12,805 nt of DNA from an uncultured Bacilli bacterium. GTDB lineage: Bacteria; Bacillota_I; Bacilli_A; RF39; UBA660. The stretch spans positions 1 through 12,805 of the forward strand of contig CANQNA010000029.1 in assembly GCA_947625005.1 (NCBI GenBank). The letters are read 5' to 3'. Below, one piece after another: positions 1-12,805 of the stretch. The notes below the pieces were generated by a model. The model saw nothing but the letters and a program-made list of their open reading frames with translations, was not told where the DNA came from and did no database searches. The position numbers and the translations under genes are program-made. Positions within the stretch are counted from its first letter, which is position 1; the number at the start of each line of letters is the position of its first letter.

Positions 1-192
1 ACAATTGCTGATCAAACTCATCCATTAGCAAATCGTAAAATGACAACTAATGGTACTAATAAAAAATATTATTATTTAGTTGTTGAATATCCAAATACAG
101 AAAATCAAACAGCAACAGATTTAGGTAAACCTATTGCAGTTAAATTAGAAGCAGAAAATATTGTATCTGCAGTTCAGGCTGCTGCTGAATAA
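1..192 (+). CDS. C-terminal fragment of a probable TasA/camelysin-like surface protein (SipW substrate)
   Basis: Only the last 63 codons lie in the window, in frame 1 and ending with TAA. The fragment is a beta-strand-rich tail containing the pattern YYLVVEYPNT, then NQTATDLGKPIAVKLEAE, then an Ala-rich end. A strand of the form Y-x-L-x-V-x-Y-x-N-x, then N-Q-x-x-x-D-x-G-K, then an alternating strand is the usual ending of SipW-dependent secreted proteins (TasA, CalY/camelysin and relatives), which form extracellular fibres. The next gene encodes a SipW-type signal peptidase, which fits enzyme and substrate side by side. A hairpin terminator follows, so this gene probably ends its own transcript. 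The N-terminus and signal peptide are outside the window, so the family call is an inference from the tail and the neighbour. Confidence 0.6.
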   Translation, partial: TIADQTHPLANRKMTTNGTNKKYYYLVVEYPNTENQTATDLGKPIAVKLEAENIVSAVQAAAE

Positions 193-213
193 AAATAAAT
201 AAAACAAATAAAT

Positions 214-240
214 GATGAGAGGGCAAGTCTCATCTTTTTC
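214..240 (+). terminator. Rho-independent terminator after the partial surface-protein gene
   Basis: GATGAGA (214-220) pairs perfectly with TCTCATC (228-234) around a 7-base loop, followed by TTTTT. It lies 21 bases after the stop codon and separates the first gene from the sipW promoter. Confidence 0.85.
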
Positions 241-308
241 TATTTTGAAAAAATAAGAAATATGTAATATTTTAAATTATTCTTTGCTTGAATTTTATTT
301 TAAACCTA

Positions 309-337
309 TTGCTATTTCTATTTTTTTTTTATATAAT
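309..337 (+). promoter_or_regulatory. Sigma-A-type promoter for the sipW-like gene
   Basis: TTGCTA (309-314) and TATAAT (332-337) are separated by 17 bases. The predicted transcription start (about 344-346) lies only about 8-10 bases before the ATG at 354, leaving almost no 5' leader. Confidence 0.6.
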
Positions 338-353
338 TATTTTATAGAATAAT

Positions 354-1073
354 ATGGTGATTAATGTGGCTAGTTTTAAAAAACAGAGAAAAAAAATTAA
401 ACCTTTTTTTGAAAAAATTGGTAAAGTTATTTCTTATGCTGTTATAACAGTGTTAGTTTTTTGTGGCTTGTTTTTTGTATATTATTTCTTGTCTAATGCA
501 GTATATAAAAGTAATCCAAATAGTAAACTTCCTAGATTTGGTTTATATACTATAATTAGTCCTAGTATGGAACCTAATATTAAGGTTTATGATGTTGTAG
601 TTACAATGACTACAGAACCAGAAACTGTTAAAGTTGGAGATGTTATTTCTTTTATTTCAAATAGTAGTATAAGTAGGGGTTTGTTAGTTACGCATCGTGT
701 TGTAAGTGTTACTAAAGCTTCCAATAATGAATTAGCATTTCAAACTAAGGGTGATAATAACAATACTGCAGATTCAGCAATGGCAATGGCTTCTAGTTTA
801 GTAGGTAAAGTTGTTTTTAAAATTCCTCAATTAGGAAGAATTCAATTTTTAATTGCTAACAAAGCAGGATGGTTATTAGTGGTTGTCTTACCAGCATTAG
901 GTGTTATTATTTATGACTTTATTAAATTATTTAAATTATTAGGAGTCAATCAAAGGATGGAAAAATTAGGGGTTATTAATAAAAGTTATAAAGAAGATAT
1001 TGATATTGATGATTTGGAAAATTTAAATAAAGTTTATGATAAATTAAAACATAGTAAAAAGAAGAGGAAGTGA
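354..1073 (+). CDS. sipW: SipW/ER-type signal peptidase I
   Basis: This membrane serine peptidase of the S26B (SipW, archaeal/ER) group removes signal peptides from selected exported proteins outside the membrane. It is 239 residues long, with a basic N-terminus, a membrane helix at about 27-46, the catalytic Ser in IISPSMEP (S71), the catalytic His in VTHRVV (H114) and the conserved Asp in TKGDNN (D134). Having His where Sip/LepB enzymes have Lys defines the SipW class. A second helix spans about 170-191, followed by a basic and acidic cytoplasmic tail of about 48 residues, longer than I expect for the family. The likely substrate is the TasA-like protein just upstream. The next gene begins within 6 bases, so the two are cotranscribed. 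No Shine-Dalgarno sequence precedes ATG 354; GTG at 357 and 366 are alternative starts but also lack one. Confidence 0.9.
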   Translation: MVINVASFKKQRKKIKPFFEKIGKVISYAVITVLVFCGLFFVYYFLSNAVYKSNPNSKLPRFGLYTIISPSMEPNIKVYDVVVTMTTEPETVKVGDVISFISNSSISRGLLVTHRVVSVTKASNNELAFQTKGDNNNTADSAMAMASSLVGKVVFKIPQLGRIQFLIANKAGWLLVVVLPALGVIIYDFIKLFKLLGVNQRMEKLGVINKSYKEDIDIDDLENLNKVYDKLKHSKKKRK

Positions 1074-1079
1074 TTGTTA

Positions 1080-2615
1080 ATGAATTTAAATGATTTAGAA
1101 AAAAAATTAGATTTAGCAATTAAAGTTTTGGAAAATAATTCTGATAAAAAAGATGAAAAACGTTATGAATTATTAGAGAATATTATTAAAGAAACTCAGG
1201 ATTATTTATTAACAGGAAATTATTTAGAAGATTCTAATAAAGAATTAATGAAAGAGTTACAAGTTTGTATTGATAGATTTAAGAAAGATAGATTAATTAT
1301 TCTTATATTAATAATTTTGTTTGGTTTATTGGTTGTAGGTGGAGTTTTTTATATAACTTATGCTAATATATTAGGTGGTAAACCTGGGGGTTCTAGTAAT
1401 ATTTGTTTGGTAAATTGCGATGAAAATCATGATGGAAAGCTTGATTACAATATTGATTATGGTAACAATAAAAAACCAACTTTTAATGTAAAAAACTCAG
1501 ATGGTTCTTTAAGAAATAAAGTTGATCAGGATACAAATCATGATAATATATGTGATTTAAATTGTGACACAAATAATGATGGAAGACCAGATATAAATAT
1601 TGATTTAGATAATGATGGAAAACCTGATTTAAATTTAGATATTAATAGAGATGAAATACCAGATATAAATATTGATGATAATAGTGATGGAACACCAGAT
1701 AGAAACTTAATGAATCAAGATACAGATGGTGATGATGAACCTGATTTAAATGTAGATAGTGATAATGATGGATGGCCAGATATTAATATAGATGTAGATG
1801 GTGATGGAGAATCTGATATAAATATTGACACAGATAATGATGGAAAGCCCGATAAAAATGTAGATACAAATAAAGATATGGTTTGTGATGTAAATTGTTA
1901 TAATGATAATAACATTTGTACAAAGAATTGTGATGTAAATCATGATAATGTATGTGATTTGAATTGCTATAATGATGCAAATGTTTGTTATAAAAATTGT
2001 GATATAAATTTAGATGGTGTTTGTGATTCATTGTGTGATGCAGATGCTAATTTAAAACCTACTACAACAACAAAGAGACCTCATAAAACAACTAAAACTA
2101 CCACAACAACAACTAAACGTGTAGTTTCAAATAATGATAAAAGTGAATCAGGATTTGTAACAGTCATATTTGATAATTCTAATTTGATGGATTTAAATAA
2201 TTTATATCCTGTAGATGATCCTGTAGGATTAAAAAGTAAACCTGTTACTTGGAGTTTATCAAGTAATTTAACAAATAGTTCTAAAAATTATGTAGTTACA
2301 TATGCTATTAATTTAAAAGATGATATTTCAAACATTCCGAAAAATGAATTATTAGATATTTCTCATTTAAAATTCCAATTATTGGTAAAAAATAAAGGTA
2401 AAGTAGTATATAATTCTAATACTCAGCTTTTAAAAGATTATCCAGAAGTACAAACTGGTTATAGGCCTATTATAGTTGGTCAAACCTTTAAAAAAGATGA
2501 AAAGCTAGATTTTGAGTTAAGAATGTGGGTAGAAAGTTCTACTGATAATTCTCAACAAGCTAAGAGATACAGATTTAATATTGATATTGAGAGTACATAT
2601 GACTTTATAGATTAA
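1080..2615 (+). CDS. Membrane-anchored, Asp-rich Cys-paired repeat protein with a TasA-like C-terminal domain
   Basis: This 511-residue protein has no named family I recognise. Residues 1-70 form a charged, helical cytoplasmic part; a membrane helix covers about 71-95. Residues 109-324 hold about 15 units of 12 residues with the form D-x-N-x-D-G-x-P/C-D-x-N-x, like thrombospondin type 3 calcium loops. Seven CxxxC pairs sit at both ends of the array (C109/113, C158/162, C269/273, C280/284, C292/296, C303/307, C315/319), and Pro-type units fill the middle. A Thr-rich linker (about 327-347) leads to a beta-rich domain (358-511). That domain ends in FELRMWVESS and RYRFNIDIES, the pattern of SipW-dependent TasA/camelysin-like proteins, although this protein has a plain membrane anchor. 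The inferred job is anchoring or starting the fibre made by the neighbours. ATG 1080 follows AGGAAGTGA with normal spacing; TTG 1074 is an alternative start that would add two residues. Confidence 0.85.
   Translation: MNLNDLEKKLDLAIKVLENNSDKKDEKRYELLENIIKETQDYLLTGNYLEDSNKELMKELQVCIDRFKKDRLIILILIILFGLLVVGGVFYITYANILGGKPGGSSNICLVNCDENHDGKLDYNIDYGNNKKPTFNVKNSDGSLRNKVDQDTNHDNICDLNCDTNNDGRPDINIDLDNDGKPDLNLDINRDEIPDINIDDNSDGTPDRNLMNQDTDGDDEPDLNVDSDNDGWPDINIDVDGDGESDINIDTDNDGKPDKNVDTNKDMVCDVNCYNDNNICTKNCDVNHDNVCDLNCYNDANVCYKNCDINLDGVCDSLCDADANLKPTTTTKRPHKTTKTTTTTTKRVVSNNDKSESGFVTVIFDNSNLMDLNNLYPVDDPVGLKSKPVTWSLSSNLTNSSKNYVVTYAINLKDDISNIPKNELLDISHLKFQLLVKNKGKVVYNSNTQLLKDYPEVQTGYRPIIVGQTFKKDEKLDFELRMWVESSTDNSQQAKRYRFNIDIESTYDFID
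1419..2051 (+). repeat. Tandem 36-base repeats encoding calcium-loop units
   Basis: About 15 degenerate 36-base units encode 12-residue Asp/Asn-rich loops. Unit pairs such as those ending PDINID recur nearly verbatim at about 1590, 1660, 1780 and 1815. The repetition is at codon level inside an open frame, so this is a protein repeat array and not a CRISPR or intergenic repeat. Confidence 0.8.
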
Positions 2616-2637
2616 GGATTTTACAATCCTTTTTTTA
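2614..2637 (+). terminator. Terminator overlapping the stop codon of the repeat-protein gene
   Basis: AAGGATT (2614-2620) pairs with AATCCTT (2625-2631) around a 4-base loop TTAC, followed by a T run. The stem begins inside the TAA stop codon. The loop and flanking bases also form the -35 box of the next promoter. Confidence 0.85.
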
Positions 2638-2648
2638 TTTGATATAAT
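2620..2648 (+). promoter_or_regulatory. Promoter for the glucosaminidase gene, embedded in the preceding terminator
   Basis: TTTACA (2620-2625; 5 of 6 consensus bases) and TATAAT (2643-2648) have an exact 17-base spacer. The -35 box occupies the loop of the preceding terminator hairpin. Transcription should begin near 2655, leaving a leader of about 18 bases that contains the AAGGAG ribosome site (2660-2665). Confidence 0.7.
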
Positions 2649-2672
2649 GAATTTACCGTAAGGAGATTAAAA

Positions 2673-3437
2673 GTGAAAAAGAATTTAATTGTTTTATTAT
2701 ATGCTGTTATTTTTATTTTAATCGCAGTAATAAATGTTATAAGTATAAAAAAATTTTTTGATAAAAAAGTAGAAGAAAATGATATAAAGTTTTCTACTGT
2801 TAATAATTATGTAGTTGAGTTTATTAGTTATAATCCAGAAAAAGCTGAAGATTTAAAAGAAACTGAAAATAATGCTCAAGTTATAGAGACTACTGAAGCA
2901 ATTGAGAATGTTGAAACACAAGAAGTAGTTACAACAACTACAACAACTAAAGATACGACAACTAAATTTTTAGAAATACCCCAAGCAGATAAAAAAGAAG
3001 AAAAAACAACAACAAATATTTTATTTGATAATTTAACAGAACAAGAATTATTAGAAAAACTTAATCGTAATTTAAAAAATGAATTAGCTGGTACAGGAAC
3101 TTATTTTGTAGAGTATTATAAAAAGACTGGATTAGATCCTTATTTAGCAATTGCAATTATTCTTCATGAAACAGGTTGTACTTGGTCTTGCAGTGATTTA
3201 GTTAAGACTTGTTATAATTTTGGAGGATTAAAAGGAGGAGAAAAGAAATATAATAATACTAACTATACTTGTTATGGTTCTAAAGAAGAGGGTATTAATG
3301 CTTTTTTAAATATTTTATATAATAATTATTATTCTCAAGGATTAACTACAGCAGAATTAATTAATCCAAAATATGCCTCAAGCTTGACTTGGGCTGCTAA
3401 AATTAATAATTATATTAATAAAATTAAAAATAATTGA
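2673..3437 (+). CDS. Membrane-anchored endo-beta-N-acetylglucosaminidase-like peptidoglycan hydrolase
   Basis: This is predicted to cleave glycan strands of the cell wall, as do FlgJ/LytG/autolysin-type glucosaminidases. It has 254 residues: a membrane helix at about 5-24, a charged spacer with Thr runs (87-97 and 112-114), then the catalytic domain at about 120-254. The family signature is visible as LAIAIILHETG with catalytic Glu E166, then NFGGLKGG (182-189, matching the usual NxFGxKG), then a YGSKEEGINAFLNIL helix and the NPKYASS/W ending. Four cysteines (C169, C173, C180, C200) crowd the active-site region and could form two disulfides. The start is GTG at 2673, set by AAGGAG 7 bases upstream. 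It has its own promoter but shares Thr-rich linkers with the preceding surface protein, suggesting it opens or remodels the wall for that fibre system. The in vivo substrate is not shown by the sequence. Confidence 0.82.
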   Translation: MKKNLIVLLYAVIFILIAVINVISIKKFFDKKVEENDIKFSTVNNYVVEFISYNPEKAEDLKETENNAQVIETTEAIENVETQEVVTTTTTTKDTTTKFLEIPQADKKEEKTTTNILFDNLTEQELLEKLNRNLKNELAGTGTYFVEYYKKTGLDPYLAIAIILHETGCTWSCSDLVKTCYNFGGLKGGEKKYNNTNYTCYGSKEEGINAFLNILYNNYYSQGLTTAELINPKYASSLTWAAKINNYINKIKNN

Positions 3438-3462
3438 TTAAAAATAGTTTATTTGTTATAAT
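3434..3462 (+). promoter_or_regulatory. Promoter of the tyrS T-box operon
   Basis: TTGATT (3434-3439) and TATAAT (3457-3462) are separated by 17 bases. The -35 box contains the TGA stop codon of the glucosaminidase gene, so there is no room for a separate terminator between them. The predicted start is near 3469. Confidence 0.7.
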
Positions 3463-3468
3463 CGTAGT

Positions 3469-3599
3469 GTTGATGGAGAAAGGATTTACAACCCTGGAGT
3501 CAAATCGTTAAATCGCGTTAAGATATTTAAGATAACTAAAGTTATAAATTAAGGTGGTACCACGGAGTATAACTTCGTCCTTATGTTTATAACTTTTTT
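3469..3599 (+). promoter_or_regulatory. T-box riboswitch, tyrosine-specific, with shortened Stem I
   Basis: This leader senses uncharged tRNA-Tyr and controls readthrough into tyrS. The T-box core AAGGTGGTACCACGG starts at 3551; its TGGT pairs with a tRNA ending ACCA. The specifier is TAC (Tyr) at 3487-3489, followed by A, and sits just before TGGA (3495-3498), as ATC does in the Ile leader of this window. The predicted start is only about 18 bases before the specifier, and the usual apical AG bulge and GGTTGGTG loop of Stem I are absent. A hairpin TTAAAT/ATTTAA (3508-3530) presents CGCGTTAAGA. The terminator pairs 3538-3548 with 3586-3596, followed by T residues, and competes with the antiterminator. 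Confidence 0.88.
3538..3599 (+). terminator. T-box terminator of tyrS
   Basis: An 11-base-pair outer stem (AAAGTTATAAA with TTTATAACTTT) plus TAAGG/CCTTA enclose the T-box core, and a 6-T tract follows. It also appears to be the only terminator available for transcripts of the upstream glucosaminidase gene. Confidence 0.85.
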
Positions 3600-3615
3600 A
3601 TATAGGAGGCATATT

Positions 3616-4809
3616 ATGAAATTATTTGATGAATTAAAATGGAGAGGTTTAATAAAAGATATCACTAGTCCAGAATTAGAAGAAAAATTAAATAAAGGTG
3701 GTATGACTTTTTATATTGGAACTGATCCAACTGCAGATTCAATGCATATTGGTCATTTATCATCATTTTTAATTAGTAAAAGATTAAAAGATGCTGGACA
3801 TAATCCAATTTTATTAATTGGAGGAGCAACAGGAATGATAGGAGATCCTAAAGCAACTAGTGAAAGAGCATTAATTAGTAAAGAGAAAGTTCAAAAAAAC
3901 TTTGAAGGTTTAAAAAAACAAGCAGAAAAGATTTTTGGTTTTGAAGTAGTAAATAATTATGATTGGTGTAAAGATATCAATATGTTAGATTTTTTAAGAG
4001 ATTATGGAAAACATTTTAATATTAATTATATGTTAGATAAAGATATTATTAGAAGAAGATTAGAAACAGGTATAACTTATACAGAATTTTCTTATATGTT
4101 AATTCAAGCTTTAGATTTTATGCATTTACATATTGCTAAGGGAGTAGATTTACAAGTCGCTGGATCTGATCAATGGGGTAATATAACAGCTGGTGTAGAT
4201 TTAATTAGAAAAGCTTGTGGAGATGAAGTTTATGCATTTACTATGCCTCTTATTACCGATTCTCGTGGAGTAAAATTTGGTAAAACTGAAGGAAATGCTT
4301 TATGGTTAGATAAAGAGAAAACTAGTCCTTATGAAATGTATCAGTTTTTAGTTAATAGTGAAGATGCGATGGTAATTGATTATTTAAAAGTTTTTACTTT
4401 TCTTTCTAAAGAAGAAATAGAAGCAATTGAAAAAGAACATTTACTTGCTCCAGAAAAAAGACTTGCTCATAAAACTCTAGCTTATGAAGTAGTAAAATTT
4501 TTGCATGGAGAAGAAGAAGCAGAAAAGGCTAAAAAAATTAGTGAAGAAGTTTTTAAAACTGGTTTAAGTGCAGATATGCCAACTAAAGAAATTACAACTG
4601 CTGAATTAGGTTTATTAGATTTATTAGTTAATTTAGAATTAGTCCCTTCTAAAAGTGAAGCAAGAAGATTAGTTGTACAAGGAGGTATTAGTATTAATAA
4701 AGAAAAAATAATGGATCCTAGTGTAGAAGTTAAAGATTTATTAAAGGAAGATTCTTGTATTTTACAAAAAGGGAAAAAAACATTTATTAAGATAGTTTTA
4801 AAGAAATAG
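3616..4809 (+). CDS. tyrS: Tyrosine--tRNA ligase (TyrRS)
   Basis: This cytoplasmic class I synthetase charges tRNA-Tyr with tyrosine. It has 397 residues, slightly shorter than the roughly 410-420 of typical bacterial TyrS. Visible features are the HIGH motif as HIGH (44-47), GATGMIGDP (70-78), the tyrosine-binding helix YMLIQALD (Y160, Q164, D167), GSDQWGN (183-189), the KMSKS equivalent KFGKT (220-224) and a C-terminal S4 RNA-binding domain (about 330-395, with PSKSEARRLVVQGGI). ATG 3616 is the start because AGGAGG (3604-3609) lies 6 bases upstream; longer in-frame starts fall inside the T-box terminator. Expression should rise when uncharged tRNA-Tyr accumulates, through the leader. From memory, tyrS and ezrA are also near neighbours in Bacillus subtilis, so the tyrS-ezrA pairing here is probably ancestral and the intervening genes may be insertions. 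Confidence 0.98.
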   Translation: MKLFDELKWRGLIKDITSPELEEKLNKGGMTFYIGTDPTADSMHIGHLSSFLISKRLKDAGHNPILLIGGATGMIGDPKATSERALISKEKVQKNFEGLKKQAEKIFGFEVVNNYDWCKDINMLDFLRDYGKHFNINYMLDKDIIRRRLETGITYTEFSYMLIQALDFMHLHIAKGVDLQVAGSDQWGNITAGVDLIRKACGDEVYAFTMPLITDSRGVKFGKTEGNALWLDKEKTSPYEMYQFLVNSEDAMVIDYLKVFTFLSKEEIEAIEKEHLLAPEKRLAHKTLAYEVVKFLHGEEEAEKAKKISEEVFKTGLSADMPTKEITTAELGLLDLLVNLELVPSKSEARRLVVQGGISINKEKIMDPSVEVKDLLKEDSCILQKGKKTFIKIVLKK

Positions 4810-4817
4810 AGTGTTTT

Positions 4818-4846
4818 TTGACAAATTCCCCATTTTGTGCTATAAT
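4818..4846 (+). promoter_or_regulatory. Perfect-consensus promoter upstream of the attenuator-like leader
   Basis: TTGACA (4818-4823), 17 bases, then TATAAT (4841-4846), with TGC directly before it as an extended -10. It begins 9 bases after the tyrS stop codon. Transcription should start near 4853, just before the second arm of an inverted repeat. Confidence 0.85.
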
Positions 4847-4914
4847 TTATTTATCAATGGGGGATTGGTTAGGTTTTATTTAGTTATGGTTTAAAATCCT
4901 CATTGAAGGATTTT
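4824..4914 (+). promoter_or_regulatory. Four-segment attenuator-like leader (segments A, B, C, D)
   Basis: A (4824-4834, AATTCCCCATT) pairs with B (4856-4866, AATGGGGGATT) over 11 pairs including one G-U. B, extended to 4854, pairs with C (4895-4906, AATCCTCATTGA) over 12 pairs with one bulged G. The 5' part of C (4893-4900) pairs with D (4907-4914) as a terminator stem. A-B and C-D can coexist; B-C excludes both. A lies between the -35 and -10 boxes, so it is absent from RNA started at the local promoter but present in readthrough from tyrS. The A/B inverted repeat around the -10 could instead be a protein operator. The ligand, if any, is unknown. Confidence 0.55.
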
Positions 4915-4920
4915 TTGTTT
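4893..4920 (+). terminator. Terminator between tyrS and the small membrane-protein gene
   Basis: AAAATCCT (4893-4900) pairs with AGGATTTT (4907-4914) around the 6-base loop CATTGA, followed by TTGTTT. It terminates tyrS readthrough, the local transcript, or both, depending on the competing pairing. Confidence 0.8.
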
Positions 4921-4934
4921 ATTAGGGGGTTTTT

Positions 4935-5435
4935 ATGAAAAGTATTGTTAGATGTGTGATAGAAATTTGTTTGGCTGTTTTAATAATAGTAGTTAGTTAT
5001 CCTATTTGGAAATCATTAAATGTGGAAGCTTATGAAAAATCAATAAAAGATTATAATAATGGTGATACTAACATATCAGTAGATGAAGAATTTGGTCAAT
5101 TAGTGTATTTACAATATGCTGATAATATTGAAGAAACACCAGTAGTGTTTTTGAATAACTATAAAAATAGTAAAGAAAATTTTAAATTAGTTTTAGTTCT
5201 TAATGAAATAAGTGAAGAGTTAGCAAATAATTTATATTTATTAGCAAAGGGAAAGACGATTCCTTTAAATGAGATGTTAATGAAAAGAGACAACGATAGT
5301 TATTATTATTTTATTAAAGATGTTCAACTTAATAAATATGAAAAAGAATCATATGATTTTAGATTATTATTAGATGATGACTTTAATATAGATAATTATC
5401 AAAGTTTTAATTATAATTTTATCAAAGAAGTATAA
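4935..5435 (+). CDS. Hypothetical membrane-anchored extracellular protein
   Basis: I do not recognise a named family. The protein has 166 residues: a short N-terminus, one membrane helix at about 7-24, then an extracellular domain of about 140 residues rich in predicted beta strands. The order of strands resembles the SipW-substrate fold: PVVFLNNYKNSKENFKLVLV, then LYLLAKGKTIPL, then YYYFIKDVQL, then YDFRLLLDDD, as in the YxLxLWLD endings of that group. This similarity is weak and is an inference. It has no SipW-type signal of its own, only a plain membrane anchor, like the repeat protein at 1080. The start ATG is fixed by AGGGGG (4924-4929) with 5-base spacing. It has a very strong promoter and an attenuator-like leader, so its expression is apparently conditional. 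A strong terminator follows the gene, making it monocistronic. Confidence 0.75.
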   Translation: MKSIVRCVIEICLAVLIIVVSYPIWKSLNVEAYEKSIKDYNNGDTNISVDEEFGQLVYLQYADNIEETPVVFLNNYKNSKENFKLVLVLNEISEELANNLYLLAKGKTIPLNEMLMKRDNDSYYYFIKDVQLNKYEKESYDFRLLLDDDFNIDNYQSFNYNFIKEV

Positions 5436-5468
5436 AAAAATATATTTTTTGAAAAATTTATTGAAATT

Positions 5469-5501
5469 AAAAATCTGTTAGAAAAAATTAACAGATTTTT
5501 T
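5469..5501 (+). terminator. Strong terminator after the small membrane-protein gene
   Basis: A perfect 12-base-pair stem pairs AAAAATCTGTTA (5469-5480) with TAACAGATTTTT (5489-5500) around an 8-base loop, with a T run on the 3' side. The A run on the 5' side would let it act on the opposite strand too, but no minus-strand gene is seen. Confidence 0.9.
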
Positions 5502-5611
5502 AAATTGGATAAAGAAATAACAAAATTAGAAGGAAAAATGGGACAAATTTTAAAAATCACGAATTTGCTATTGAAATAACTTTGTGTTAGCCTCAAAAAA
5601 GGGAGGGAAAA

Positions 5612-6442
5612 ATGCAAAAATTTTATACAGCAAAGTATGATGTAATATTTAAAACAATCTTTTGTGATGAAAATAATAATAAATTATTAAAAGTAATATT
5701 AAGTGAAATATTAGAAAGAGAAGTAAAACATTTAATTTTTTTAAATAAAGAATTACCAATAAAGAAAAGAACAGAAAAACTAAAAATAGTAGATGTATTA
5801 GCAATAGTAGATAATGAGTATGTTCATATAGAATTAAATAGTAATAATTTAAGTTATTTACATCCAAGAAATTTAACATATTTTTGTGATATATATGCAA
5901 CAAAAAATAAAAGGGGAGAAAATTATAATGCCAAGACAAAATTTATTCATATAGACTTCACATATCGAATGAAAGAGAAATATGATTATAGGAGATATAA
6001 AATACAAAGTGATAAAAAGGAAAAGTATGTAGAAAACTTTGAAATAATAGAATACAATATGGACAGAATAAAAGAATACTGTTACAATGGGAATAAAGAG
6101 AAGTATGAGAAATATAAACATTTAATAATGATAGATATGAATGAAGAAGAGTTAGAGAAATTTAGTAAGGGAGATGAAGTTATGAAAGAGTATAAAGAAA
6201 AGATTCAAATGATAAATGATACAGATAAGTATGAGAGTTTTATAACACCGGAAGAAGATTTTCAATATTGTTTAAATAGTGAAAGAGAACTAGGATTAGA
6301 AGAAGGATTAACTCAAGGAATAAATCAGGGAATTACAGATTTAATAAAAAGATTAACAGAACAAAATTATTCAGAAAAAGAAATTTTAAGTATTGCTAAT
6401 ATAAGTAAAGAAAAATATAATGAATTATTAAAAAACATTTGA
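5612..6442 (+). CDS. Rpn/transposase_31 family PD-(D/E)XK nuclease
   Basis: This family contains DNA endonucleases related to E. coli Rpn proteins, linked to recombination and phage defence. The 276-residue protein opens with the family pattern YDVIFKTIF (9-17), followed by the nuclease core VDVLAIVDNEYVHIELN. The core acidic residues are D61 and E74; the position after E is L-N, where many relatives have x-Q or x-K, so the third active-site residue is atypical. The RNLTYFCDIY helix and the FIHIDF strand follow. A charged helical region (about 150-230) and a small C-terminal helical domain (231-276) complete it. GGGAGGG (5601-5607) sits 4 bases before ATG 5612. No clear promoter was found. 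From 6128 on, 192 bases are repeated almost exactly in the next gene. An internal ribosome site and ATG at 6182 could yield a separate 86-residue C-terminal protein. Confidence 0.85.
   Translation: MQKFYTAKYDVIFKTIFCDENNNKLLKVILSEILEREVKHLIFLNKELPIKKRTEKLKIVDVLAIVDNEYVHIELNSNNLSYLHPRNLTYFCDIYATKNKRGENYNAKTKFIHIDFTYRMKEKYDYRRYKIQSDKKEKYVENFEIIEYNMDRIKEYCYNGNKEKYEKYKHLIMIDMNEEELEKFSKGDEVMKEYKEKIQMINDTDKYESFITPEEDFQYCLNSERELGLEEGLTQGINQGITDLIKRLTEQNYSEKEILSIANISKEKYNELLKNI
6128..6319 (+). repeat. First copy of a 192-base tandem duplication
   Basis: It matches 6443-6634 with only four base differences (6133, 6226, 6235 and 6286). All four are third-codon changes that keep the amino acid. The flanking octamer AAACATTT also precedes both copies, with a short length difference before the ATG. 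Confidence 0.97.
6167..6184 (+). promoter_or_regulatory. Internal ribosome binding site and ATG inside the Rpn gene
   Basis: AAGGGAG (6167-6173) lies 8 bases before an in-frame ATG (6182). Translation from it would give the last 86 residues (6182-6442). Published E. coli Rpn work describes small C-terminal proteins made this way that inhibit the full-length nuclease; applying that here is an inference. The same site is preserved at 6482-6499 in the downstream copy. Confidence 0.5.
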
Positions 6443-6634
6443 ATGATTGATATGAATGAAGAAGAGTTAGAGAAATTTAGTAAGGGAGATGAAGTTATGA
6501 AAGAGTATAAAGAAAAGATTCAAATGATAAATGATACAGACAAGTATGAAAGTTTTATAACACCGGAAGAAGATTTTCAATATTGTTTAAATAGTGAAAG
6601 GGAACTAGGATTAGAAGAAGGATTAACTCAAGGA
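6443..6634 (+). repeat. Second copy of the 192-base tandem duplication
   Basis: Same length and frame as 6128-6319, about 98% identical, with an identical 64-residue translation. Similarity breaks sharply after the Gly codon at 6632-6634, beyond which the two genes encode different tips. Confidence 0.97.
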
Positions 6635-6751
6635 GAAAACCAAGAAAAAATAAAAATGGCTTACAAATTAAAAGACAAGAATTATAGTATAGAAGAAACT
6701 GCAGAATTAACAGAATTGCCAATAAATACATTAAAAGAAATATTTAATTAA
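6443..6751 (+). CDS. Stand-alone Rpn C-terminal domain, possible RpnS-like inhibitor or cassette
   Basis: The open frame starts with ATG directly after the TGA of the Rpn gene and encodes up to 102 residues. It has no nuclease core. Residues 1-64 are identical to Rpn residues 173-236. The last 38 (from ENQEKIKMAYKLKDKNYS) differ in sequence but keep the small helical pattern of Rpn tails. No ribosome site precedes ATG 6443, though stop-start coupling is possible. AAGGGAG (6482-6488) lies 8 bases before ATG 6497, so an 84-residue product from 6497 is the more likely protein. All four differences from the first copy are synonymous, which argues that this copy is translated and under selection, not a decaying fragment. 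It could be a free-standing antitoxin, an alternative 3' cassette for recombination, or the remnant of a second Rpn gene. Confidence 0.65.
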   Translation: MIDMNEEELEKFSKGDEVMKEYKEKIQMINDTDKYESFITPEEDFQYCLNSERELGLEEGLTQGENQEKIKMAYKLKDKNYSIEETAELTELPINTLKEIFN

Positions 6752-6760
6752 ATAATGAGT

Positions 6761-6796
6761 ATAACAATAATTCGCTCTTTTTTCTTGTTATTTTTT
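6761..6796 (+). terminator. Terminator after the Rpn pair
   Basis: ATAACAA (6761-6767) pairs with TTGTTAT (6785-6791) across a 17-base loop and is followed by TTTTT. The AT-rich stem and long loop make it weaker than the others here. Confidence 0.55.
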
Positions 6797-6797
6797 A

Positions 6798-6806
6798 TGA
6801 TAAAAT
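6798..6806 (+). promoter_or_regulatory. Extended -10 promoter element for ezrA
   Basis: TGA directly precedes TAAAAT (6801-6806), an extended -10. No good -35 box is seen at 17 bases, only a T run. The start would be near 6813, and AAGGAG (6816-6821) sits 8 bases before the ezrA ATG. Confidence 0.5.
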
Positions 6807-6829
6807 ATACATAGTAAGGAGAGTTTTCT

Positions 6830-8548
6830 ATGAGTGATAATTTATATTTATATGTAGGTATTATATATTTTATTGTTGCTGCTATTTTAATAACTCTTAC
6901 TTTAGTTTTAATAAATAAACACAATAAGAAAAAATATAATGAAGCTTTAAGAGTTTTGGAAAGAGATAAAAATTTAATTATATCTGCTTCTATTTTAAGT
7001 GAATTAAATAAAGTAGAATCGTTAATAAATAATAAAGAATTAGAAGGAATATATGATAACTGGAAAGCAAAATTCAAACAAATTAAAGATAAGGAAGTTC
7101 CTAAAATAACTGATGAACTTATTGAAGTAGAAGAACTTTTTAAAACAAAAAAATATAAATTAATTGAAGAAAAATTAGCGAAAATAGAATTAGATATTTA
7201 TTATGTTAAAAGTAAAGCACAATTTTTGTTAAGTGAAATTAGAGAAATTACTTTAAGTGAAGAAAAGAATAGAGAAATTGTGACAAAACTAAAAACAACT
7301 TATCGTAATATATTTAATAAGTATAATGAACATAAAGAAGATTATTATTTGATTAATGCTTCAATTGAATTACAGTTTGAGAATGTTGATAAATTATTTT
7401 CTAGTTTTGAAGTTGCTATGGATAATAATAAATATAGTGAAGTAGGAAAAATAGTAAAAGCCTTAGATGATATTATAGGTAATTTAAGTATTGTTATAGA
7501 AGAAACTCCAAGTATTATTTTAATGGGTAAAAATATTATTCCTAAGAGAATTCAAGATATTCGAGAATTAAATGATAAAATGACTAAGGATGGATTTAAT
7601 TTAGATTATTTGAATATAGAATATAATATAGGAGAATCAGAAAAAAAGATTGCTGATATATTTGATAGATTAAATGTTTTAAATTTAGAGGATTCTATAT
7701 TTGAACTTAAAACAATAATGGATTATTTTGATTCTCTTTATAATGATTTTGAAAAAGAAAAAGTTAGTAAGAAAATGTTTTTAGAATATGTAAGAGTATT
7801 AGGAATAAAAAGTAAAAAAATTAATTCAATTATATCTAATATTATGAAGAAAATTGATGAAATCAAATATAGTTATGATTTAAGTGATGCCGAAGTTGTT
7901 ATAATTGATGAACTTAACTTACAAAGTAAAAGCATTCAAAGTGATTATGAGACAATAGTAGATAATTATCGTAATAAATCATTCGCTTATACTAAACTTA
8001 ATAAAGAAATGGAATTTTTAAATTTAAAAATATCTAAAATAGAAGATAGATTGGATTATACTCTTAAGAGTTTAGGTAGTTTAAAAGAAGATGAACTAAG
8101 GGCTCGTGAACAATTAGAAGAAATTAAAGATATTTTAAATAAAGCTAAAAGAAAAATCAAAAGTTTTAAACTTCCTGTAGTACCAAAAGCTTATTATATA
8201 GAATTAGATGAGGCAACTGAGGCAATTAGAGAGATGATCAAAGAATTAGAACATCAACCTATTTCTATAAAAACTTTGAACACAAGAGTTGATACAGCTA
8301 GAGATTTAGTTTTAAAGCTTTATAATACAACTAATGAAACAATAAAAACTGCATGGATGGCAGAAAATGCTATTATTTATGGAAATAGATATAGAGCTGA
8401 AAATAAAGAAATTAATATGGGATTAGAAAAAGCTGAAACAGCTTTTATGAAAGGTAATTTTAAATTAAGTTTAGAAAACTCTATAAATGCTATAAATATA
8501 GTGGAGCCAGGGATTCATAAAAGATTATTAAAAGCATATGAAAAATAG
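6830..8548 (+). CDS. ezrA: Septation ring formation regulator EzrA
   Basis: EzrA is an inner-membrane protein that binds FtsZ and restrains Z-ring assembly away from midcell, and also supports septal wall synthesis. The 572-residue length matches the family. An N-terminal helix at about 7-28 anchors it with the rest in the cytoplasm. The long alpha-helical, coiled-coil body shows family landmarks: LEGIYDNWKAKF (71-82), the SEEKNREIVTKLKTTYR stretch (143-159), the IEETPSI segment (223-229), DGFNLDYL (254-261), the YGNRYR patch (517-522, corresponding to the conserved QNR region) and the NIVEPG ending (556-561). The start is set by AAGGAG and its position after the promoter. The zinc-ribbon gene follows 11 bases later and shares its transcript. 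Nothing is truncated. Confidence 0.93.
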   Translation: MSDNLYLYVGIIYFIVAAILITLTLVLINKHNKKKYNEALRVLERDKNLIISASILSELNKVESLINNKELEGIYDNWKAKFKQIKDKEVPKITDELIEVEELFKTKKYKLIEEKLAKIELDIYYVKSKAQFLLSEIREITLSEEKNREIVTKLKTTYRNIFNKYNEHKEDYYLINASIELQFENVDKLFSSFEVAMDNNKYSEVGKIVKALDDIIGNLSIVIEETPSIILMGKNIIPKRIQDIRELNDKMTKDGFNLDYLNIEYNIGESEKKIADIFDRLNVLNLEDSIFELKTIMDYFDSLYNDFEKEKVSKKMFLEYVRVLGIKSKKINSIISNIMKKIDEIKYSYDLSDAEVVIIDELNLQSKSIQSDYETIVDNYRNKSFAYTKLNKEMEFLNLKISKIEDRLDYTLKSLGSLKEDELRAREQLEEIKDILNKAKRKIKSFKLPVVPKAYYIELDEATEAIREMIKELEHQPISIKTLNTRVDTARDLVLKLYNTTNETIKTAWMAENAIIYGNRYRAENKEINMGLEKAETAFMKGNFKLSLENSINAINIVEPGIHKRLLKAYEK

Positions 8549-8559
8549 GGAGATAAAAT

Positions 8560-9531
8560 ATGTATTGTGAAAATTGTGGACATAAATTAAAAGATAAAGA
8601 TTTATATTGTGAAGAATGTGGAACAAAAGTAAAAAGAAAAGAAATTATTGCAGATAAACCTAAAAAAGATAGTAGTTTAAAAATTGTTTTGATTGTTTTA
8701 GGTTGTATTTTTGGAGGATTAATTTTCTTAGGTCTTATAGTCGCATTTATTGTGTTATTAGGTTATTCTTATGTGGATAAACTGGATGTTGATTATGATT
8801 GGGATAATGCCATTAATAATTATTCGACTTACTCTCATTTAAAAACAGATGAAGAATTTTTAAAGGAAATTCCTAATTTAAAAGATACTTACTTAGAGAG
8901 CAAAGATATATATAGTGGATTTTATTCTTATTATAATGCTGATTTTATTACACCAAGTAATATGAATCAAAATATTTTAGTTTCTATTGTTTTTAATGAT
9001 ATAGAAAAAAAAGAAGCAACGATTATTGATAATACTTATGATATAGATAAAAACAATATAGACAGTTTTAAGGTATTAGATAATATAGAAGATAACTATT
9101 TTAAGTTAGATGATTTATTTGTATTTTCAGTTAGGGAAGAAGAGATTCATTCTCGAGTAAAAAATTTATTTAATGTAGATATTGATCCATCTTTAATTAA
9201 TTATAAAAATGATATTTGTGAAGGTTATATTAGATATATAGACAAAAGTAAAATATATCGCAAATATTATGAAGAATGTGATAATGGTAAATATTTTACA
9301 AAAATTGCGAATATAGTAAATTATGGTGATTATGTAAAAGTTCAAGAATATGTGGGATTTATTAAAGATGATAAAGTTTTTGACGAATTTGATGGAGATT
9401 ATATTTGTGAGGTAAATGAAGTAAAAAAATTCTATCAAGATTTAGAAAAGGAAGAAAAAGTCTTTAGAAAAAGAAATGATGGAACTTATTATTTAGAAAG
9501 TATAAGTGATACTGATATTTATTTTGATTAG
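8560..9531 (+). CDS. Zinc-ribbon membrane protein of unknown function
   Basis: The 323-residue protein begins with a cytoplasmic zinc ribbon, YCENCGHKL then YCEECG, with ligands C3, C6, C17 and C20. A basic linker precedes one membrane helix (about 40-69). The remaining 250 residues are extracellular by the positive-inside rule, rich in Tyr, Asp and Lys, with predicted mixed strands and three cysteines (C220, C240, C283). This zinc-ribbon plus membrane-helix architecture is common in low-GC Bacillota, but the extracellular part matches no family I know. AGGGAG (8547-8552) overlaps the ezrA stop codon and sits 7 bases before ATG 8560, so the two genes are one operon and may be translationally coupled. 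A division or envelope role is a guess from the neighbour only. No terminator separates the gene from the ileS promoter, which begins 7 bases after the stop codon. Confidence 0.8.
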   Translation: MYCENCGHKLKDKDLYCEECGTKVKRKEIIADKPKKDSSLKIVLIVLGCIFGGLIFLGLIVAFIVLLGYSYVDKLDVDYDWDNAINNYSTYSHLKTDEEFLKEIPNLKDTYLESKDIYSGFYSYYNADFITPSNMNQNILVSIVFNDIEKKEATIIDNTYDIDKNNIDSFKVLDNIEDNYFKLDDLFVFSVREEEIHSRVKNLFNVDIDPSLINYKNDICEGYIRYIDKSKIYRKYYEECDNGKYFTKIANIVNYGDYVKVQEYVGFIKDDKVFDEFDGDYICEVNEVKKFYQDLEKEEKVFRKRNDGTYYLESISDTDIYFD

Positions 9532-9538
9532 ATTTATA

Positions 9539-9567
9539 TTGACAAAAAAAGCTGAAAATTCTATAAT
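9539..9567 (+). promoter_or_regulatory. Perfect-consensus promoter of the ileS T-box operon
   Basis: TTGACA (9539-9544), an exact 17-base spacer, and TATAAT (9562-9567) match the sigma-A consensus fully. Transcription should start near 9575. Confidence 0.88.
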
Positions 9568-9574
9568 TTAGTTG

Positions 9575-9787
9575 TAAAACAAATGAAAAAGACGGTAAAT
9601 AGAGGAATTTTTAGAGAGTTTGTGGTTGGTGAAAACAAATAAAGGAATCTATTTATAGATCACTTTGGATGTGTTTAAGTTAAAGCTTAAAACGTATGCT
9701 CGCGTTAAGAGTTTAAGTGTATGATTTACTCATAAATTAAGGTGGTACCACGGAGTATGACTTCGTCCTTTAGTTTATGAGTTTTTT
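9575..9787 (+). promoter_or_regulatory. T-box riboswitch, isoleucine-specific, canonical Stem I
   Basis: It senses uncharged tRNA-Ile to allow readthrough into ileS. Stem I pairs AAATAGA (9597-9603) with TCTATTT (9648-9654) and carries the classical AGAGAG bulge and apical loop GGTTGGTGAAA, closed by TTTGT/ACAAA. The specifier ATC (9659-9661) is followed by A and then TGGA (9666-9669). A CTTAAA/TTTAAG hairpin (9685-9717) contains CGCGTTAAGA. The T-box core AAGGTGGTACCACGG starts at 9739; its TGGT suits an ACCA tRNA end. The terminator competes with the antiterminator as usual. Confidence 0.95.
9728..9787 (+). terminator. T-box terminator of ileS
   Basis: ACTCATAAA (9728-9736) pairs with TTTATGAGT (9774-9782) around the T-box core, followed by a 6-T tract. 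It is also the first terminator met by ezrA and zinc-ribbon transcripts. Confidence 0.87.
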
Positions 9788-9806
9788 ATTGGAAAGGATA
9801 AATTTT

Positions 9807-12805
9807 ATGAAAAATTTTAAAGAATTAGACAAAAGAAATGCTCATGAGGTTGAGTCAACTATTTTAGAAAATTGGAAAAAAGAAAATATTTTGGATAAAA
9901 CTATTGAAAATAGAAAAGGTGCCAAAGATTGGGTTTTCTATGATGGACCAGCAACTGCTAATGGAATGCCAGGATTACATCACATGGTTTCTAAGTTTTT
10001 AAAAGATACTTTTTGTAAATATCAAACTATGAAAGGTCATAGAGTTTTAAGAAAAATTGGATGGGATACTCATGGGTTACCTGTAGAAGTTAATGTAGAA
10101 AAAAAATTAGGATTTACAGGAAAAAATGATATTGAAAAATATGGTATTGAGAAGTTTAATAAATTATGTAAAGAGACTGTTTGGGATAATGAAAATGCAT
10201 TTCGTAAATTAACGGAAGAAATGGGACAATTTATTGATTTGGATAATCGTTATATTACTTATGATAATAATTATATTGAAACTGAATGGTGGATTTTAAA
10301 AAAGTTTTTTGAGGAAGGGTTATTTTATGAAGGAGTAAAAATTATGCCTTGGTGTCCAAGATGTGGAACTGGTTTAGCTTCTCATGAAGTCGCTCAAGGA
10401 TATAAAGAAATAGATGCAAATACTGTAATTGTACCATTTAAAAAGAAAGATGAAGATGTTTATTTCTTAGTTTGGACAACTACTCCTTGGACATTAATAA
10501 GTAATGTTGGTTTATGTGTTAATGCTCAAGAAGATTATGTTTTAGTAGAATCTAAAGGTTATAAATTTATTTTAGGTAAAACTTTAGCAAGTAGTGTTTT
10601 AGGTGATGATTATACAGTTTTAAAAACTTATAAAGGTAAAGACTTAGAATATATGGAGTATGAACAATTAATTCCAAGTTTAGAAGTAAAAGGTAAAGCT
10701 TTTTATGTTATGTGTGATGATTATGTTACGATGAGTGATGGTACTGGTATTGTTCATATTGCACCAGCTTTTGGAGAAGATGATGCTAGAGTTGGTAAAA
10801 AATATAAAATGCCATATTTAAATCCTGTGGGAGAAGATGCTACTTATACAGAAGGCTTATGGAAAGGTATGAATATCTTTGAAGCAGATTTAGAGGTAAT
10901 TAAATGGTTAAAAGAAAATGATAAATTATTTAAAAAACAAAAAATTAAACACGATTATCCTCATTGTTGGAGATGTGATTCTCCTTTAGTATATTATTCT
11001 CGTCCATCTTATTATTTAGAAGTAACTAAATTTAAAGATAAGATTATTGCAGAAAACAAAAAAGTTAATTGGTATCCTAGTTATGTTGGGGAAAAAAGAT
11101 TTGGTAATTGGCTAGAAAATATGAATGATTGGGCAATTAGCCGTAATCGTTATTGGGGTACTCCACTTCCTTTATGGACATGTTCTTGTGGACATATGGA
11201 AATGATAGGCTCACGAGAAGAGTTGGCAAGTAAGGCAATAGAAAAAGTTGATGTTAAAACTATTGATTTACATCGTCCTTATGTTGATGATATACATCTT
11301 AAGTGTTCTAAATGTGGAAAAGAAATGACTCGTACTTTTGAAGTTATTGATTGTTGGTTTGATTCAGGCGCAATGCCTTTCGCTCAATATCATTATCCTT
11401 TTGAAAATAAAGAATTATGGGAAAGTCAATATCCTGCTGATTTTATTGCTGAAGGAATTGATCAAACAAGAGGATGGTTCTATTCTTTGTTAGTTTTAGG
11501 TGTATTTGTTACAGGAGTTAGTCCTTATAAAAATGTTTTAGTTAATGAATTATTATTAGATAAAAATGGTCATAAAATGCATAAATCTAAAGGTAATGCT
11601 GTGGAACCATTTACAATAATGAATAAATATGGAGCAGATGCTATTCGTTGGTATATTCCTTATGTATCACCAACTTGGACACCTTTGAAATTTGATGAAA
11701 ATGGATTAAAAGAAGTTCACTCTAAATTCTTTAATCCTTTAAGAAATACTTATTCTTTCTTTCAAATGTATGCAAATACTGATGGTATTGATATTGATAA
11801 ATGTAGAGTTCCTTATGAAAAAAGAGAAGAAATTGATAAATGGTTATTAAGTAAATTTAATAAATTAATTAAAGTTTGTACCGATAGTTATGAAAAATAT
11901 GATTTAAATGAAGTTGTTAAAAATATTACAAGTTTTGTATCAGAAGACTTATCAAATTGGTACATTAGACGTAATCGTAATAGATTTTGGAGCAGTGAAG
12001 TAGACGACAGTAAAAAAGCTGTTTATGAAACTACTTACGAGGTTTTAGTTGGTTTATGTAAATTATGTGCTCCTATTATTCCTTATACAACTGAAGAGAT
12101 TTATCAAGATTTAACTGGAGAAAAATCAGTCCATTTAAGTGATTTTCCAGAGTATAAGGAAGATTTAATTAATGAAAATATTGAAGTAAAAATGGATTTA
12201 GTTCGTGATTTAATTTCTACAGGAAGATTTGTTAGAGAAGAGACAAGAATAAAGGTGCGTCAACCTATTAGTGAATGTTTAATTGATGGAAGTTATGAAG
12301 AAATATTAGGAGATTTAGTTAATTTAATTAAAGAAGAATTAAATGTAAAAAAAGTTACTTTTGTTTCTGATTTAAGTGAATATATGAACTTTACTATAAA
12401 ACCTAATTTTAAAGTATGTGGAGCAATGTTTGGAGCAAAAATGAAAGATTATCAAGCTTTACTTGGTGATTTAGAAGAAGAGGATAGAGAACTTCTTTTA
12501 AAAGAAGAAACTATTACAGTTGATTTTAATGGAGAAAGATTAGATATTACTCCAGATATGGTTGATGTAAGAATTGAAAGCAAAGAAGGTTTCAATGTAG
12601 GTATGGAAAATAATAAATTTATTATTTTAAATACAGAGTTGACTAGAGAACTTATCTTAGAAGGTTTAGCTCGTGAAGTAGTTTCTAAAGTGCAAAATAT
12701 GAGAAAAGAAAAAGACTTTAATATAATTGATAGAATTAATCTTTATTATGATACTGATGAAGAAGTAGAAGAAGCAATAAAAATGTTTAAAGATTATATT
12801 ATGAG
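9807..12805 (+). CDS. ileS: Isoleucine--tRNA ligase, IleRS2-like, with GxHH motif (3' end outside window)
   Basis: This cytoplasmic class I synthetase charges tRNA-Ile and edits valine errors. The open frame of 999 codons runs off the window end with no frameshift; IleRS2 proteins usually exceed 1,000 residues, so only a short tail is missing. Visible features: DGPATANGMPGLHH (46-59), WDTHGLPVE (86-94), first zinc motif CPRCG (183-187), editing-domain WTTTPWT (223-229) with VHIAPAFGEDD later, second zinc set C459, C461, C500, C503, and KMHKS (590-594) in GHKMHKSKGN. The HxGH catalytic motif reads G56-L57-H58-H59, and KMSKS reads KMHKS. Overall style (WDTHGLPVE, the HKMHKSKGN context) is the eukaryote-like IleRS2, the natural mupirocin-resistant class. 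ATG 9807 follows AAAGGA (9793-9798) with 8-base spacing. Expression is under the Ile T-box just upstream. Confidence 0.96.
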   Translation, partial: MKNFKELDKRNAHEVESTILENWKKENILDKTIENRKGAKDWVFYDGPATANGMPGLHHMVSKFLKDTFCKYQTMKGHRVLRKIGWDTHGLPVEVNVEKKLGFTGKNDIEKYGIEKFNKLCKETVWDNENAFRKLTEEMGQFIDLDNRYITYDNNYIETEWWILKKFFEEGLFYEGVKIMPWCPRCGTGLASHEVAQGYKEIDANTVIVPFKKKDEDVYFLVWTTTPWTLISNVGLCVNAQEDYVLVESKGYKFILGKTLASSVLGDDYTVLKTYKGKDLEYMEYEQLIPSLEVKGKAFYVMCDDYVTMSDGTGIVHIAPAFGEDDARVGKKYKMPYLNPVGEDATYTEGLWKGMNIFEADLEVIKWLKENDKLFKKQKIKHDYPHCWRCDSPLVYYSRPSYYLEVTKFKDKIIAENKKVNWYPSYVGEKRFGNWLENMNDWAISRNRYWGTPLPLWTCSCGHMEMIGSREELASKAIEKVDVKTIDLHRPYVDDIHLKCSKCGKEMTRTFEVIDCWFDSGAMPFAQYHYPFENKELWESQYPADFIAEGIDQTRGWFYSLLVLGVFVTGVSPYKNVLVNELLLDKNGHKMHKSKGNAVEPFTIMNKYGADAIRWYIPYVSPTWTPLKFDENGLKEVHSKFFNPLRNTYSFFQMYANTDGIDIDKCRVPYEKREEIDKWLLSKFNKLIKVCTDSYEKYDLNEVVKNITSFVSEDLSNWYIRRNRNRFWSSEVDDSKKAVYETTYEVLVGLCKLCAPIIPYTTEEIYQDLTGEKSVHLSDFPEYKEDLINENIEVKMDLVRDLISTGRFVREETRIKVRQPISECLIDGSYEEILGDLVNLIKEELNVKKVTFVSDLSEYMNFTIKPNFKVCGAMFGAKMKDYQALLGDLEEEDRELLLKEETITVDFNGERLDITPDMVDVRIESKEGFNVGMENNKFIILNTELTRELILEGLAREVVSKVQNMRKEKDFNIIDRINLYYDTDEEVEEAIKMFKDYIM

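Follow-up and report, generated by a model that had tools for sequence, protein, structure and literature searches.

Why should a bacterial nuclease gene be followed by a second copy of its own 3' end that carries a different tip? The question is raised by a stretch of 12,805 nucleotides from an uncultured Bacilli bacterium (GenBank assembly GCA_947625005.1, contig CANQNA010000029.1, positions 1 to 12,805 of the forward strand; the whole stretch is called the window here). In it, a gene for an anti-phage-type nuclease of the Rpn family (5612-6442, plus strand) is directly followed on the same strand by an open reading frame (ORF; 6443-6751) that resembles the C-terminal part of the Rpn protein. 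Rpn proteins are widespread and have a hypervariable C-terminus, and extra rpnS genes occur. Translation within rpn genes is reported to yield a small protein, RpnS, which blocks the full-length protein, RpnL (Zhong et al. 2023, PMC10327210). The arrangement in the window is best read as an RpnL/RpnS toxin-antitoxin gene accompanied by a displaced, mismatched second RpnS that would give immunity against nucleases bearing another tip. We give this reading a probability of roughly 0.57; it overlaps with the alternatives weighed below, and the weights given to them need not sum to one.

From its profile matches, the gene at 5612-6442 (276 residues plus a stop codon) is an RpnL-like gene of the PDDEXK_2 nuclease type. 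Its product matches PF12784 with an E-value of 9.6e-15 and 55.4 bits, above the curated cutoff of 27.4, and scores 51.1 bits against TIGR01784, just under the cutoff of 52.1. Residues D61, E74 and N76 are invariant in 34 aligned relatives, and the main start is preceded by a Shine-Dalgarno (SD) sequence with a duplex energy of -11.7 kcal/mol, the unit of all SD values given here. A second SD sequence, AAGGGAG (6167-6173), lies inside the gene and is separated by eight bases from an in-frame ATG at 6182 (Met191; site 6167-6184). The same motif at the same spacing recurs in the downstream ORF (6482-6488, ATG 6497; site 6482-6499). The first-pass annotation had proposed these two sites as starts of small C-terminal proteins, and their positions and the lengths of the predicted products, 86 residues plus stop (6182-6442) and 84 residues, are confirmed. 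Both sites score -8.5 in an identical context. Within the downstream ORF the site at 6497 alone is strong, the next best start scoring -1.1 and the first ATG, at 6443, +2.0; an 84-residue protein is the most likely product of this ORF, rather than the 102 residues encoded from 6443. The chance level was taken from the other genes of the window, where 2 of 106 in-frame internal ATGs reach -7.5 or better; these two sites lie at 3835 in tyrS (-9.3) and at 10344 in ileS (-8.7).

The two small proteins owe their likeness to a 193-base repeat, the upstream copy of which (6127-6319) lies within the full-length gene. The downstream copy (6442-6634) begins with the last base of that gene's stop codon. 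The copies differ at four positions (6133, 6226, 6235 and 6286), all synonymous by alignment, and they part ways from 6320 and 6635 onward. The predicted products are identical over residues 1-46 and diverge thereafter, in keeping with the earlier claim that they differ solely in their tips. Tip 1 (6320-6439), common to the nuclease and the predicted intragenic RpnS, comprises the second half of a long helix and the last two helices; tip 2 (6635-6748), that of the free-standing copy, agrees with tip 1 in 11 of its last 36 residues. A structure model of the nuclease places C-terminal helices at residues 189-203, 213-250, 255-262 and 266-274, and glycine occupies every fourth residue from 228 to 240 (LGLEEGLTQGINQG), giving the four-residue repeats of the S proteins. 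Modelled residues 226-271 align with the crystal structure of RpnA-S (7th0) with a modest Z only; a Foldseek search with the whole model gave no match at an E-value of 0.001 or better. The downstream ORF has no Pfam match, and its partial TIGR01784 match (35.9 bits, below the cutoff) falls at model positions 192-273, the C-terminal part of the model. It lies on the same strand behind rpn, 54 bases separate the nuclease stop codon from ATG 6497, and its SD sequence and ATG are homologous to the internal start, as expected of a free-standing RpnS gene.

The internal site of the window gene is uninformative when taken singly. When the gene was shuffled synonymously, with its protein and codon use kept fixed, the shuffles gave an equally strong site (mean -8.71, p 0.905), since the residues KGDEVM by themselves yield such a sequence. 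Support for the internal start thus comes from the family, examined in the first 63 distinct full-length genes of a set that later reached 101, with kinship among the genes uncorrected. An ATG is present within residues 180-212 (window numbering) in 62 of the 63 genes, and the best such ATG reaches -6 in 44 of them. Residues 190-199 hold 63 methionines with a mean SD energy of -7.2, and 42 of these reach -6 or better; the remaining bins of ten residues have means between about +0.8 and -3.4. It could be argued that these sites are a by-product of a conserved K-G-D-x-x-M motif and that no small protein is made, and amino-acid content does account for much of the signal, the shuffled mean being -5.24 at the 61 methionines of residues 190-196 and -0.54 at other internal methionines. 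The actual sites at those 61 methionines are nevertheless stronger (-7.31) and beat their shuffles in 50 cases (Wilcoxon 1e-7, a value that is too optimistic because the genes are related), while 262 other internal methionines are slightly weaker than their null (-0.40). Furthermore, the position of the ATG shifts among genes (190, 191, 192, 195 and 201) and the SD sequence still precedes each. A C. difficile rpn gene placed in E. coli made RpnS, which was lost when the ribosome-binding site and start were mutated (PMC10327210). The by-product explanation is therefore given very little weight, and comparison of the genes indicates that an internal, in-frame ribosome site from which a C-terminal protein would be made is a feature of the family.

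The first-pass annotation regarded a second, separate inhibitor bearing another tip as a new arrangement. This is contradicted by Escherichia coli, in which separate rpnS genes stand behind rpnE (where the copy is called ypaA) and rpnC (PMC10327210) and, in K-12, rpnE and ypaA are unlike in both tip and repeat number; the arrangement in the window is of an already known kind. As in the window, rpnE is a full-length rpn gene with an intragenic SD/ATG and a free-standing copy directly behind it (Zhong et al. 2023, PMC10327210). Both K-12 copies begin with a common SD and ATG (AAGGAGAGATTAATG), the alignment of the two starts at the SD sequence, and their tips differ. The K-12 S proteins (56 and 61 residues) start just before the repeats, whereas those of the window start about 40 residues before them, and both repeat number and tip vary between the K-12 copies, whereas those of the window vary in tip only. 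Zhong and coworkers found that repeat number must match for inhibition by RpnC-S, one extra repeat abolishing it, that there is no cross-inhibition between RpnA-S and RpnB-S, and that rpnS genes have been gained, lost and fused among strains (PMC10327210). E. coli is distant from the window organism, to which the repeat rule would be carried over by analogy, and no experiment in which only the tip of a given Rpn was altered was found in the literature covered.

Spare C-terminal copies recur in the gut Bacilli. Among the 97 of the 101 distinct full-length genes that have at least 300 bases downstream, seven are followed on the same strand by a copy of their own C-terminus (the window, L015, L019, L105, L110, L126 and L181). 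This is not an unbiased rate, as the genes were hand-picked from profile matches, some of them on account of a neighbouring C-terminal match (all 20 of one batch of regions and at least four of 80 others). L079 forms an eighth pair and stands outside the 97, its upstream gene being cut by a contig end. In the seven loci other than the window, a PDDEXK_2 gene is likewise followed by a C-terminal copy that is mismatched to its neighbour in all seven and has a homologous SD-ATG in six; the distance from nuclease stop to free ATG ranges from 10 to 469 bases (six measured) and is 54 bases in the window. Ungapped homology between the copies extends 21-108 bases upstream of the spare ATG in six pairs, and in L181 the copies are alike at 11 of 15 bases just before the ATG, fading above it (12 of 30). 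The earlier proposal of RpnS-like proteins, one intragenic and one free-standing, is thus well supported by the family-wide internal start and the free-standing copies, with the alignment to RpnA-S, of modest Z, as further support.

Such copies could also be debris, that is, 3' fragments left by unequal exchange between rpn paralogues that are not, or no longer, working genes. The genomes of these loci carry many rpn paralogues, the L079 spare copy has lost its start (ATG to ATA), RefSeq lists K-12 ypaA as a pseudogene, and the four differences in the window are few and possibly older than the copy. Promoter-like matches in the window locus are at shuffle level (12 against 11.0), and a scan for terminator-like sites there found none. 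An N-terminal fragment also occurs upstream of one gene: in L001, a 49-residue open frame (4645-4791) about 1.2 kb upstream of the full-length gene matches approximately the first 40 residues of the Rpn profile. Upstream N-terminal copies accordingly number 1 of 94 with flanks of 1500 or 3000 bases and 0 of 94 with 1200. The contrast with the 7 of 97 downstream C-terminal copies gives a Fisher p of 0.065 at 1500 or 3000 bases and 0.014 at 1200; the weaker figure is preferred, and the excess of downstream copies is suggestive only. Because of this p-value, debris was weighted up and the preferred reading slightly down. With 1200-base flanks, downstream N-terminal copies were absent (0 of 97) and one upstream C-terminal copy was found among 94 genes (L164, where the piece starts at a contig edge). 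Against debris, the frame is open in eight of eight spare copies, a strong SD is retained at the homologous ATG in seven of eight and in all ten two-copy E. coli haplotypes, and YpaA protein was detected in E. coli by tagging (PMC10327210). The ratio of nonsynonymous to synonymous differences (pN/pS) after the ATG is 0.10 in seven pairs with 29 differences, although this constraint may predate the copy. On balance, debris is an unlikely explanation.

What distinguishes the spare copies is that they do not match. In all eight pairs, the spare S protein is unlike that of its neighbour in repeat number or tip. Repeat number changes by whole repeats, spare relative to neighbour, in L015 (-3), L105 (-7), L126 (-2), L181 (+2) and L079 (-2), with tip residues changed as well in L079, L015 and L181. 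The tip differs with no whole-repeat change in the window, L019 and L110. The spare tip of L019 is that of another nuclease in the same genome (L026), identical over 33 residues. The E. coli locus behaves similarly in the haplotypes sampled, for which 14 matches were chosen from 40 spread ones and one of the 14, with an insertion sequence (L152), was excluded; the haplotypes are non-independent and in part near-identical, and single-copy genomes were sampled four times rather than counted. Repeat-tract length differs between the copies in 10 of 10 two-copy haplotypes (3 and 7 residues in K-12; 35 and 7 in EH08-18-36), which have two tip types and an SD energy of -8.9 in both copies of each. 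In all four single-copy haplotypes, the nuclease bears the ypaA-type, or spare-type, tip. The consistent mismatch is not stated in the main text of PMC10327210, the only paper on RpnS found within a literature coverage that is incomplete. In the excluded locus (at 801-1445), from E. coli UTME-10, a truncated rpnE frame is followed by an IS2-type element.

The mismatch bears on whether the window's nuclease is served by two antitoxins, with the pair of S proteins binding a shared dimerisation surface of that nuclease and the free-standing gene providing an extra dose or separate control. The identity of the first 46 residues and the same-strand spacing of 54 bases in the window would suit such an arrangement, as would the spare tips of L105 and L126, which are the same or nearly the same as those of their neighbours (36 of 36 and 34 of 36 last residues). 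It is difficult to reconcile with differences in repeat number or tip in every pair and every two-copy E. coli haplotype, and with the loss of RpnC-S inhibition on addition of a single repeat. The comparison agrees better with immunity against another tip, and a shared role for both antitoxins is considered improbable.

In the preferred reading, the full-length protein would be a DNA nuclease, the C-terminal 86 residues of which would also be made alone, as a dimerising inhibitor, from the site at 6182. The second, separately started RpnS would have arisen by recombination between C-terminal segments sharing the SD-ATG unit, and it is probably non-cognate to its neighbour because the tips differ. 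It would act as a displaced antitoxin against nucleases bearing the other tip. Tip switching may also draw on it as a donor, because the nuclease body would be joined to tip 2 by recombination across the 193-base repeat. A wider proposal, held tentatively, is that free-standing RpnS genes are in general displaced, systematically mismatched antitoxins: specificity would change by recombination at the SD-ATG boundary, the old inhibitor would be kept to guard against former-tip nucleases in sister strains or paralogues, and deletion of the stretch between the copies would switch the system back. The smallest exchanged cassette would then consist of ribosome site, start and S. With the boundary of exchange placed at the internal ribosome site, a joint change of toxin and antitoxin specificity in one step would be explained. 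The comparison yields a testable rule, that the spare antitoxin is unlike its neighbour's, and K-12 rpnE/ypaA and the single-copy strains are material suited to testing it. Polymorphic toxins such as CdiA and Rhs offer an analogy, in that they have orphan C-terminal toxin/immunity modules in which a shared stretch precedes a variable 3' end displaced behind the active gene. In Rpn, by contrast, the variable part would itself be the antitoxin, with neither secretion nor a separate immunity gene.

Several points weigh against this reading, beyond the null result of the window gene, the lost start in L079 and the p-value of 0.065. Only 11 of 62 genes singly pass the 5% level in the shuffling test. 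The two S proteins of the window may form heterodimers, because their identical first 46 residues include the first half of the long helix. The mismatch could arise without selection, repeat tracts being unstable. L026 and the L019 spare copy differ by four residues in the repeat region. In RefSeq, K-12 RpnE is labelled inactive, and most of the free-standing copies examined other than ypaA are marked incomplete. Among E. coli genomes, the inner rpnE tip and the junction from tip to free start (at 80% cover) each occur in 3099 of 5426 genomes, and the ypaA-type tip with its 3' flank in 5363 of 5426. The 3099 were rejected as a sign of selection for keeping the spare copy, as the inner tip is invariably the one lost when a deletion joins the two copies, and the genomes are clonally related.

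Many C-terminal-only matches at first resembled abundant orphan genes, a reading that was rejected: of the 20 regions in the batch mentioned above, 14 have the match no more than about 130 bases from a contig end and were set aside as truncations, L079 is a true pair and five are mid-contig. In L080, L092 and L098 a frame break appears to divide a single gene. Solitary mid-contig pieces are found in L085 (2250-2522, a 91-residue frame) and L097 (minus strand, 1192-1476, a 95-residue frame), with no full-length gene in the 4 kb examined; they may be orphan RpnS genes that stand apart from an rpn gene. In G007, G008 and L081-L084, contigs break off inside rpn at approximately residue 195-199, close to the internal start, and the tips that follow differ; the body up to this boundary may be common to the paralogues of one genome. 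A protein search for free-standing homologues returned only the window's own among six candidates, and is weakly informative as it needs shared five-residue words. A plasmid search gave no match, PADLOC models reached only E-values of 0.005-0.008, and a phage search gave one partial match at 31% identity.

The window is bacterial DNA low in guanine plus cytosine, and relatives of the nuclease gene (48 loci) are mostly uncultured Bacilli, Bacillales or Tenericutes records, which suggests a gut Bacilli relative. The Rpn gene lies between a 166-residue ORF with no Pfam match and ezrA (PF06160). A T-box leader (RF00230, 118 bits) precedes ileS at 9574-9773. The stretch before tyrS (about 3470-3600), which shares the 58-base end of this leader (91% alike), resembles another T-box leader but stays below the Rfam gathering score. 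An ORF of up to 513 residues contains 36-base repeats (1389-2030) coding Asp/Asn-rich units (NDGKPDINID-like), which from their resemblance we take to be perhaps calcium-binding.
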